Assembly: GCA_024239075.1 (NCBI GenBank)
Contig: JANBVI010000019.1
Span: 1 to 35,677, forward strand
Length of the DNA: 35,677 bases
DNA from: Fischerella sp. CENA71
GTDB lineage: Bacteria > Cyanobacteriota > Cyanobacteriia > Cyanobacteriales > Nostocaceae
Direction of reading: 5' to 3'
The notes beneath the pieces were generated by a model. It searched no databases. It had not been told where the DNA came from and was given only the letters and a program-made list of their open reading frames with translations. The translations under genes and the position numbers were made by a program. Below are positions 2,646 through 31,517 of the stretch, piece after piece. Position 1 is the first letter of the stretch. Every line of letters begins with the position of its first letter.

Positions 2646-2859
2646 CAAAAGGCGATCCCACCTGGGACATGCCCGGAAGAAGAATCAGCTACAACTTGAC
2701 GCTACTGTTGGTGATGATTCATTACCAACCAGATGGACAGGATTCTCTGCACTGCTATTGCCCTTATTGACTGGTTTTGCGACTGGTATTTGAACATGAA
2801 GGCGGACTTGATAACTGAGGTCGTGACCAGACGCGAAAAACAGTAGTGCGATCGCACTA

Positions 2860-2972
2860 GGGATCTCCAAGAAATAAAATGAGAGCGCCCTATCAAATAT
2901 ATTGTGGCGAGTGTCCAAGGACTGGTAAGCGTTCCCACCTGGGTGGGAACGCGAGGGCGCTCTCCTAAAATA
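2860..2972. repeat. Nested inverted repeat, family 2, copy A
   Basis: The outer arms GAGAGCGCCCT (2881-2891) and AGGGCGCTCTC (2954-2964) pair perfectly and enclose 62 nt. Inside, GCGTTCCCACC (2929-2939) pairs with GGTGGGAACGC (2942-2952) with almost no loop. The left half (GGGATCTC, AAAATG, CCCTATCAAATATATT, GGCGAG, CCAAGGA) matches 31249-31310 base for base in most places. Both stems have different sequences there, yet are again fully complementary. Confidence 0.75.
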
Positions 2973-2987
2973 TTTTTTGGAAAGGCC

Positions 2988-3304
2988 TTAATAAGTTGTC
3001 TATGATAGCATAGACAGTAATTATTTCGTTTAACATCTATCCTCTCCATTTTTATCCCTAGAGAGGATTTTATTGCACAAAGTGATCGCCTAAGGATTAA
3101 TGAGCGTTCCGCCCCTCTAGGCGGAACGCAAGGGCGGCATATTTTATTACGAGGATTGGCCTAATAACTAGCAACTTGGATTGCTAGATCTAAACTCTGC
3201 ACTTTATGGATAGCCAAATTCCAGTTGAAATCTCGATAATATATAAATCTATACACTGTTCAGCCGCTTGAAATGTTACTGAAGTGTGCTTCTTTCCCAG
3301 CAAT
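2988..3304. repeat. Dispersed ~320-bp repeat, copy 1
   Basis: This non-coding block is nearly identical to 31142-31517. It contains a hairpin GTCTATG/CATAGAC (2998-3015), an ATCCTCTC/GAGAGGAT hairpin, and a stem GCGTTCCGCC/GGCGGAACGC (3104-3113, 3120-3129) with loop CCTCTA. A tail follows with GAGGATTGGCCTAATAACTAG and an AT-rich stretch. Compared with copy 2 it lacks 59 nt bounded by AAGG direct repeats, which removes the left half of the nested structure. It carries no frame I believe in. Confidence 0.8.
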
Positions 3305-3513: not shown

Positions 3514-3623
3514 TTTATTTTACCAGATGATATTTCGGACAAGTCTTCTAGTATTTGCCGAATATTGCCCAAAGCTAAAAAGGCATGAGGGACATTTTGT
3601 TATAGCATTACAAGGGTGTGTTT

Positions 3624-5621
3624 ATGAGAGAATTACTAGAGTTTGAAACATTCGATGCTCGCCACTCAAATTCTAGAGTATCAAGTAGGGACTTTGAAGA
3701 TATTTTAGTGGTCGGTCAGCCATTGCAAATCTCTTTAAATAAATTGGCTCCTTCCCAGAGTGAATTTCTTATTTTAAAGACAGTTGGAGAAATCGAAGTT
3801 TTTTCTGGTACCAACCAACCAATTTCTACACAAGTTCCTCTTTCTATTGCAGAAGTCCCAGAAATTAATCTCCTATCAAAAACTTTTAGCGATCAAATTA
3901 AAGACCGTTCTTTACAAATAACCTTTCAAGATAATAATCATCGTCCGCTGAGTCAAGTACAGCTAAACCTAACTGTAGTTCGCGTTTGTCTAGATATTGA
4001 TGCAGATCGGGATGGAATTATTGAAGAAGATAATCCCCATAAAGCTGATTGGCAGTGGGGAATCAATGGTCATGGTGCAATCTTATTAGTCAATAGCGAT
4101 CGCGATATTGTTTATTCTGATGGTCAAACTGATGGCGAAGAAAGCTTAATTAGAGGACTACTCGACCTAAAAGATTTTAACTTTATGATTGTTCGTAAAG
4201 TTGGTTTAAGAGATTTACCTTCTGGATACGAACTTTACTTATCAGTTAACAAAGATACCGCCGAACGTATTCGTATCTATGATGAATTAGATAGAAATGG
4301 CTATGAATTGATTGGTCCAGGCAGAACAAGAGCAAAAATTAGGGATACTGACCGAGACATTATTTTAGCTATTGAAGGATTAAGTTATCCTGATTTTGAC
4401 TTCGACGGCATAGTTGAGATTACTTTAAGTCTAGTCAAAGATGGCAAATCTCTCTACAGTGATCGAGTTATCTTCAAAGTCGCGCCTTGGATAATGACTC
4501 CTAATACTTTATCCCCGATCACTGTCTTTGTTTCTCGTTTATCTAATGGATTGAACAAAGAATTTATCGAGGAATTAAGAAAAGTTGTTGGCAAAGCTAA
4601 CGCGCAACTAGATATTGTTCCTTTTGAGTTTCATCAGGATGACCCTTGGATGCAAGACGAGATAGAAATTGGTTATACTCAAGCTCCAGGACATCTTATG
4701 CCCGTAGTCTTTGATTCGCCTCGCGATCGAGGATTAGTTGATTTCCCCAAACGCAAACTATTAGGACTTGACTTTGGCTATCTCACCCGCAAAAGCCGTT
4801 ATTTGGCTACAAAATTAGACTCTTTTGGCAATTTAGAAGTTTCTCCTCCAGTCACTGTTAAAGGTGTTGATTATCCCTTCGGTCGTCTTATCTTTGGAGG
4901 AACTCGCAAATCTATCATCCCTGAACCACGTCGTCGGATGTTGAAAGTCTTGCGAGATTTTCTTTATGCTCAAAAAATTCAAGCTCCTTTTGAAATCTTT
5001 TCCGATTGGCTGAGCGTGGGACATATTGATGAGTTTATGACTTTTGTTGGTGCTCCTACATCCAAAGGATTTAAATTACTTTTAGCCAGTCCAGACCGAT
5101 GTTATGACATTCTCAAAGATTTACAAAACCAAGGTCATGATCAACTCTTATTGCGACAAGGTAAACGATTTTCTTATGGCCCTGCTGATATTAGTGTGGC
5201 AGATATCCTTGCTGATGAAAAATTAGCTGCCCATAACCATCGCTTTCAAGAATATATTAATTGGAATCGAGAGGTTTTGAAACAAGAATTAGACTTAAGC
5301 GAACAAGATATTATCGAACTACCTGCTTTATTTGAAGATGATGGATATGGACGGGCCGAAACTTTTTTTCCTAATATGGTCAACATGATTGTTCTCAATC
5401 AGCATCTTGGTATTCCTAAACCATTTGGACCTAAGATTGATAATCAATGCCAATTTGAAGCTTATGTTAAAAACGTTTTAGAACCTTTGGGTAAGGAATG
5501 CCACTTTATTGATGATTGGGAACCTTATTTTCGAGGACGAGGCGAAATTCATTGTGGAACTAATACACGTCGCCAACCTTTTGCTCAAAAATGGTGGGAA
5601 ATTGAACCTGCCTTCTTTTAA
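3624..5621 (+). CDS. Protein-arginine deiminase (PAD family)
   Basis: Converts peptidyl-arginine to citrulline, releasing ammonia (EC 3.5.3.15); probably calcium dependent and cytosolic, as no signal peptide is seen. Residues ~1-115 form an N-terminal beta domain. Residues ~120-280 match PAD_M, with the acidic loop DIDADRDGIIEEDNPHKADW typical of its Ca2+ sites. The rest is the catalytic domain. All four catalytic residues of human PAD4 are present at nearly the same numbers: Asp345 (WMQDEIEIGY), His467 and Asp469 (SVGHIDEF), Cys644 (EIHCGTN). The C-terminal FFPNMVNMIVLNQHLGIPKPFGP block is also conserved. I prefer the ATG at 3624, 7-8 nt after AAGGGTG, over the GTG at 3618, which lies too close to that site. 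Vertebrate-like PADs are known in a few cyanobacteria. It stands alone, 77 nt before the pentapeptide-repeat gene. Confidence 0.93.
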   Translation: MRELLEFETFDARHSNSRVSSRDFEDILVVGQPLQISLNKLAPSQSEFLILKTVGEIEVFSGTNQPISTQVPLSIAEVPEINLLSKTFSDQIKDRSLQITFQDNNHRPLSQVQLNLTVVRVCLDIDADRDGIIEEDNPHKADWQWGINGHGAILLVNSDRDIVYSDGQTDGEESLIRGLLDLKDFNFMIVRKVGLRDLPSGYELYLSVNKDTAERIRIYDELDRNGYELIGPGRTRAKIRDTDRDIILAIEGLSYPDFDFDGIVEITLSLVKDGKSLYSDRVIFKVAPWIMTPNTLSPITVFVSRLSNGLNKEFIEELRKVVGKANAQLDIVPFEFHQDDPWMQDEIEIGYTQAPGHLMPVVFDSPRDRGLVDFPKRKLLGLDFGYLTRKSRYLATKLDSFGNLEVSPPVTVKGVDYPFGRLIFGGTRKSIIPEPRRRMLKVLRDFLYAQKIQAPFEIFSDWLSVGHIDEFMTFVGAPTSKGFKLLLASPDRCYDILKDLQNQGHDQLLLRQGKRFSYGPADISVADILADEKLAAHNHRFQEYINWNREVLKQELDLSEQDIIELPALFEDDGYGRAETFFPNMVNMIVLNQHLGIPKPFGPKIDNQCQFEAYVKNVLEPLGKECHFIDDWEPYFRGRGEIHCGTNTRRQPFAQKWWEIEPAFF

Positions 5622-31141: not shown

Positions 31142-31517
31142 TTAATAAATCGCCTATAATAGCATAGACAGTAATCATTTCGTTTAACATCTATCCTCTC
31201 CATTTTTATCCCTAGAGAGGATTTTATTGCACAAAGCGATCGCCTAAGGGATCTCGGTGAAAACAAAATGTGCCGCCCTATCAAATATATTTCGGCGAGC
31301 GCCCAAGGATTAATGAGCGTTCCGCCTAGAGGGGCGGAACGCAAGGGCGGCACATTTTATTACGAGGATTGGCCTAATAACTAGCAACTTGGATTACTAG
31401 ATCTAAACTCTGCACTTTATGGATAGCCAAATTCCAGTTGAAATCTCGATAATATATAAATCTATACACTGTTCAGCCGCTTGAAATGTTACTGAAGTGT
31501 GCTTCTTTCCCAGCAAT
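31142..31517. repeat. Dispersed repeat, copy 2, with full nested structure
   Basis: Nearly identical to 2988-3304 but 59 nt longer. The extra DNA (31246-31304) completes a nested structure. Outer arms AAAATGTGCCGCCCT (31265-31279) and AGGGCGGCACATTTT (31344-31358) pair over 15 bp. Inner arms GCGTTCCGCC (31317-31326) and GGCGGAACGC (31333-31342) have loop TAGAGG. It ends 150 nt before the GC-rich cassette; 31518-31667 shows nothing else besides an AAGGAAA ribosome site. Confidence 0.8.

Follow-up and report, generated by a model that had tools for sequence, protein, structure and literature searches.

A stem whose two arms have changed in step is commonly taken to prove a functional RNA. Two short elements in a 35,677-nucleotide stretch of the Fischerella sp. 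CENA71 genome (the whole stretch analysed, henceforth termed the window) raise the question of what such changes signify in a repeat. The elements, copies A and B, share their single-stranded text, differ in both their outer and their inner arms, and have every stem perfectly paired, as direct reading and predicted folds confirmed. A preliminary description had reported this layout and attributed it either to selection on the fold or to a replication mechanism that copies the folded form. It placed both elements correctly and slightly too short, since with their terminal repeats they extend over 2860-2987 and 31248-31374. Their parts are the following.

2857..2859, no strand: left target duplication of copy A, CTA (read directly)
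2860..2987, + strand: copy A, full element (BLAST match 2860-2987)
2881..2891, + strand: outer arm of copy A, 5' side, GAGAGCGCCCT (fold)
2929..2952, + strand: inner hairpin of copy A, GCGTTCCCAC, loop, GTGGGAACGC, with arms 2929-2938 and 2943-2952 (fold)
2954..2964, + strand: outer arm of copy A, 3' side, AGGGCGCTCTC (fold)
2988..2990, no strand: right target duplication of copy A, TTA, one mismatch to CTA (read directly)
31248..31374, + strand: copy B, full element, flanked by TAA (31245-31247) and TAA (31375-31377)
31268..31279, + strand: outer arm of copy B, 5' side (fold)
31317..31342, + strand: inner hairpin of copy B, with arms 31317-31327 and 31332-31342 (fold)
31344..31355, + strand: outer arm of copy B, 3' side (fold)

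Copy A reads as an A-type end (GGGATCTCCAAG), an AATAAAA spacer, the nested stems and a B-type end (GGCCTTTCC read inward). Measured against 200 shuffles, the folds of copies A and B reached z values of -5.6 and -6.2 on the + strand and -6.7 and -7.1 on the - strand, and for each copy and each strand none of the 200 shuffles was as stable as the real fold. Downstream of copy A, window positions 3618-5621 encode an enzyme most familiar from vertebrates, a protein-arginine deiminase (PF03068, E 3e-156; PF08527).

Copies of the element are numerous and dispersed among branching cyanobacteria. With copy A as BLAST query, 31 matches were found in its own genome (7.47 Mb, 95 contigs), and with a composed 123-nt query the five genomes of the genus yielded 58, 42, 50, 31 and 17, every one of the five being positive; these 198 matches include partial ones and cases in which one arm matched the other. 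In a family-wide sample in which only six candidates were scored per genome, the element was matched in 33 of 146 genomes and 18 of 56 genera. Plasmids of Fischerella sp. NIES-4106 also bear copies, one of them at 15 places, and the plasmid copy that we inspected had no annotated feature under the match. Scanning genome contigs for the core returned 66 stretches, of which 63 were cyanobacterial and all of these Nostocales by name; the remaining three, from Clostridium, Turicibacter and an uncultured Clostridia bacterium, were taken for chance matches. None of the 66 stretches named Anabaena sp. 90 or Dolichospermum, and phage records held no match to the element.

To describe the family, a script was used to extract 116 copies from the loci of these genomes; 110 were kept, and six were dropped by length, including one that was spurious (L086). 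Extraction required the core TATYAAATATATTT with one mismatch allowed, so the set is biased towards this core, and copy A, missed for its altered 3' spacer, lies outside the 110 and inside the covariation alignment discussed below. The kept copies are non-coding and measure 122-128 nt in 109 cases and 110 nt in one. They follow a common plan of end, AATAAAA-like spacer, outer arm, TATYAAATATATTTTGG...CCAA, inner hairpin, outer arm, spacer and end. Core and inner arm set apart two subfamilies, F2 (TATCAAATATATT, GCGTTCC...), to which copies A and B belong, and F1 (TATTAAATATATT, CGCTTTCGCC...). In three loci (L004, L005 and L007, at about 1170-1305 in the last) a second palindromic element, TTGCACTGTC...AATTGGGCAGGC...GCCTGCCCAATT..., lies inside or beside family copies and has the text CAAATATATTTTG in common with the family.

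The ends are terminal inverted repeats with GG-type termini facing each other, and by our grouping they fall into two kinds: an A-type end resembling GGGATCTCC, and a B-type end resembling GGCACTTCC, GGCCTTTCC or GGCCAATCC. Nearly every copy carries one end of each kind (99 of 110), despite the mostly matched arms next to them, whereas the ends of the related insertion sequence (IS) described below are alike on both sides; A+A occurs once, B+B twice, and eight copies were unassigned. All 48 F2 copies with one A and one B end have the A end on the core side. F1 shows both arrangements, in 29 and 22 copies, as if its interior had been turned round relative to the ends.

Target duplications and ends point to a mobile element. 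Exact 3-nt duplications flank 92 of the 110 copies, 64 of them in the form TNA, a count slightly inflated by the extraction, which chose among a few end offsets partly by target duplication; when the flanks of the same copies were mispaired 1000 times, 21 of 110 agreed on average and never more than 33. The only relative of a candidate transposase that a PF07592 profile search found in the own genome was partial and interrupted, and this degenerate copy seemed to speak against an ISAzo13 origin, until a full-length IS in another genome (G003) supplied the link. This 1595-bp IS, found by pairing terminal repeats, is present there in three full-length copies; it ends in GGGACTTCCAAGGAATAAAATC and GGGACTTCCAAATAATAAATTA, and the copies are flanked by the target duplications TAA, TTA and CTA. 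In all three its reading frame consists of two overlapping pieces, the second matching PF07592, the ISAzo13 transposase domain, at 4e-62 and the first matching the start of the same profile at 7e-8. Compared over 22 bases with the first end of this IS, the element ends agree at 19 (GGCACTT type), 18 (GGGATCT type) and 16 (GGCCTTT type) positions, and are not identical to it at positions 3-6.

Among IS loci from other genomes, 12 of 29 have the same kind of ends together with equal 3-nt flanks; the other 17 showed no such end pair, some being cut and some belonging to subfamilies with other ends, of which ISAzo13 has several. Relatives of the transposase occur in 79 of the 146 genomes of the family. 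They are commoner where the element is present, in 26 of 33 genomes with the element vs 53 of 113 without (Fisher p 0.0014, a hand count with relatedness uncontrolled), and in 7 of the 33 no relative was detected. An IS with exactly one A and one B end was found neither in the 16 stretches searched nor among the loci examined. Ends that face each other at greater distances and have equal 3-nt flanks do exist, at 1998 bp (L134), 1022 bp (L129), 521 bp (L173), 468 bp (L144) and 234 bp (L137); the first contains a 331-codon frame and the second no frame above 84 codons, and both were rejected as longer ISs with A/B ends and taken for separate short copies that face each other by chance. Two loci (L101, 1462-1528; L144, 463-930) have family copies inside or against remains of ISAzo13-type ISs. 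One locus from a distant genus (L179, 149-467) contains a composite element of 319 bp whose ends are of this kind too, with a TAA duplication and internal repeats; its genome (G010) has no detected relative of the ISAzo13-type transposase.

Because its ends and 3-nt target duplications resemble those of ISAzo13-type ISs, we file the element by these sequence features as a non-coding ISAzo13-type MITE of about 125 bp, and an ISAzo13-type transposase would be its mover. It resembles the PF07592-bearing ISs of Nostocales in its terminal repeats and its frequent TNA duplications, and differs from them in combining A and B ends and in having no gene, while the ISs are coding, about 1.6 kb long and of one end type on both sides. 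The earlier view that no named family fits holds insofar as we found no published name; as to class, ends and target duplications give the element a place among ISAzo13-type MITEs. The rule of one A and one B end raises the question of how the transposase tells the ends apart.

We then asked how consistently the stems are paired across the family. The search for further copies with covarying pairs, proposed in the preliminary description, was run on 53 of the 56 extracted F2 copies (L011, L018 and L158 were left out) and was positive, with a covariation score of 0.193 vs 0.073 in shuffled alignments. Paired cells amounted to 92.5% vs 84.3% and cells changed on both sides to 94 vs 33.6; for all three measures none of 500 shuffles was as high. 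Pairs with a change on both sides numbered 11 vs 8.2 (3 of 500 shuffles), and further pair types, at 23 vs 21.5 (131 of 500), were not above chance. G-U pairs, counted by us from the alignment table, are few (26 of 1343 cells).

For the outer arms we compared 7 nt in 109 of the 110 copies (L170 was left out), taking the 3' arm at its best-matching offset, which leans towards a match. The arms were identical in 73 copies by script and in 75 after reading by eye, which showed two mis-anchored copies (L018, L048) to be matched; random reassortment, run 2000 times against the uncorrected 73, gave 14.1 on average and at most 26. By script, both subfamilies exceed their random values, with 35 of 54 for F1 (20.3, maximum 29) and 38 of 55 for F2 (6.7, maximum 15). 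Arms that mutate without compensation, named beforehand as the contrary outcome, are thus present in part, 34 of the 109 copies being unmatched beside the 75 that are matched. Five of these differ by one or two bases and 29 by clearly different sequences. Exact target duplications are kept in 27 of the 34, and 16 unmatched copies that share one 5' arm class occupy 16 separate locations, so unmatched copies have spread too.

A second pattern concerns the orientation of the inner hairpin. A perfect inner stem of at least 10 bp occurs in 76 of the 110 copies, and for flip counts we used the 79 copies with a well-defined inner hairpin, leaving out 31 in which the search patterns found no perfect unit. 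Relative to the core read in one direction, 20 of the 29 different inner hairpins recur as their exact reverse complement, vs none of 29 for reversed loops and none of 29 for complemented loops. Seven of 16 loop types, spanning 68 of the 79 copies, occur in both orientations. Among 19 copy pairs identical outside the hairpin (pairs that share copies), 14 have a different hairpin, two an exact inversion and three the same hairpin. One pair with shared flanks in two genomes (L167 in G001, L168 in G004) differs in a short stretch of one end and is identical in the remainder. For the short TTGG/CCAA stem, 91 copies gave no inverted partner. An inverted loop on a short stem is nevertheless present in L020 and L150, both excluded from the counts, so that arm length sets no strict limit.

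The window itself contains what is the family's cleanest apparent case of a hairpin flip, in a duplicated locus with a third copy that the preliminary description had not mentioned at this point.

2988..3304, + strand: duplicated locus, copy 1, bearing the partial element (8 substitutions in 311 non-loop positions compared with 31142-31517)
about 3092..3161, + strand: partial element, of which the 3' half and the B-type end are left (comparison of the duplicated loci)
3104..3129, + strand: inner hairpin of the partial element, 26 nt, exact reverse complement of 31317-31342 (100%)
31142..31517, + strand: duplicated locus, copy 2, bearing copy B (similarity to 2988-3304)

A 59-nt deletion between AAGG repeats removed the 5' half of the partial element. 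Among hairpins with the same arms, its loop has no further occurrence in the own genome, so the flip probably took place in situ or between the two duplicates. Similar stretches recur in the same order about 28 kb apart, namely 68-158/28159-28249 (84%), 656-724/28333-28401 (75%) and 2988-3304/31142-31517 (about 97% outside the gap), an arrangement that resembles a single locus duplicated and later diverged.

Taken with the mobile nature of the element, these patterns probably reflect a MITE that is moved by an ISAzo13-type transposase and whose stems are kept and shuffled by replicative strand switching in and between DNA hairpins. The interior of the element would act as a set of nested palindromes on which a nascent strand, during DNA replication, could switch template within or between hairpin arms. 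A switch inside one copy would copy one arm onto the other, keeping or restoring perfect pairing, and could also turn the loop round. If the strand switched into another copy's hairpin, a different hairpin would be imported, and in either orientation, because the arms are palindromic. Swaps and chimeras would arise from switching into another copy or from short gene conversion, and recombination between copies would likewise yield chimeras with unmatched arms. As strand switching rewrites both arms, double compensatory changes would need no selection on an RNA.

Homogenised arms and inverted spacers are published marks of template switching at inverted repeats (PMC8604942, PMC8794818), and the mostly matched arms and inverted loops of the present family are in keeping with them. 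The hallmark of a template-switch hairpin, exact loop inversion between perfect arms, is present; a change of both arms in one event may lie behind the matched arm classes, which are found in 75 of 109 copies. The patterns are read from the sequences directly, and from them we infer that replication rather than another process was their maker. The excess of matched arms could be due mostly to descent from matched ancestors rather than repeated correction, and the 14 hairpin differences between otherwise identical copies could be short gene conversion by ordinary recombination. Of the two original alternatives, copying of the folded form gains ground at the level of DNA, through loops inverted in place, whole-hairpin differences and mostly matched arms; selection on the fold does not, with no Rfam match and with target duplications kept by 27 of the 34 unmatched copies.

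A bolder version of the strand-switching reading, which we hold to be unlikely, makes the hairpins exchangeable cassettes, the folded strand of one copy routinely templating another, either at replication or in a single-stranded transposition intermediate.

Quite unlikely, too, is an account in which ordinary recombination between dispersed copies shuffles the modules, with matched arms simply inherited and no special role for the hairpin. Four-gamete incompatibilities between most module pairs are in its favour, as are the unmatched copies that join clearly different arms, 29 of 34 in our reading and 14 under a stricter rule. Recombination alone, however, does not give the exact inversion of a 23-26 nt hairpin, and for the loop of the flip in the window no other donor was found in the genome.

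That the element is a transcribed, functional structured RNA, with both stems kept paired by compensatory mutation under selection, we regard as distinctly improbable. Covariation over the 53 copies is strong and the folds are very stable, as this explanation would have it; yet covariation does not discriminate between RNA and strand switching, because strand switching predicts the same signal. Against a structured RNA stand the nearly equal folding of + and - strands, the scarcity of G-U pairs, the outer arms that are unmatched in copies that mostly retain exact target duplications, and the exact loop inversion, which selection on an RNA does not predict. No Rfam family reached gathering score in the window; below that score there was one match at copy A (E 0.41), which we disregarded, and none at copy B.

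A dedicated enzyme, such as a REP-type tyrosine transposase or a site-specific recombinase, that cuts and inverts hairpins would account for inverted forms that are common and bounded by the hairpin, and is nonetheless very improbable, since no hairpin with these arms was seen to stand alone in the own genome, where 23 element matches together with the partial copy of the window account for the 24 GCGTTCC-type hairpins, and where each of the 11 GCGCTTTCGCC-type hairpins falls at an element match or end.

None of the components, MITEs, ISAzo13 or template switching, is new in itself. Likewise cyanobacterial, the MITEs of Anabaena sp. 90 measure 77-541 bp, are classed as type II with no related IS in that genome, and include a sample group shown with three sets of inverted repeats (PMC3542288). 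Nezha, cited in PMC10969869 and PMC3733652, is a cyanobacterial MITE as well. REP palindromes (PMC3733652) are also short and change stems and loops between copies, and differ in being 20-40 nt long with GTAG or CGTC tags, whereas the present hairpins were seen only within a larger element that has target duplications. A further likeness is to template-switch mutations at inverted repeats, for which the parts consulted report arm homogenisation, multiple compensatory changes and whole-loop inversion in RNA genes and yeast coding genes (PMC8794818, PMC8604942), here met in a mobile element family; bacterial loop inversions are included in a figure legend of PMC8794818. The literature searched contained no account of the family, nor any of inverted loops in a bacterial MITE.

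If the hairpins were indeed exchangeable cassettes, the family would amount to a machinery for shuffling, its stems being rewritten two matched arms at a time and its loops being about as likely to flip as to stay, and the asymmetric A and B ends would be kept by selection against homogenisation. Independently of that stronger reading, here a bacterial family of many copies carries the compensatory signal together with exact loop inversions and whole-hairpin differences, a combination that points to DNA strand switching. It comes with a warning that RNA genes should not be called from covariation in repeats, and it makes the family a natural record from which template-switching rates and arm-length limits in bacteria may be measured.
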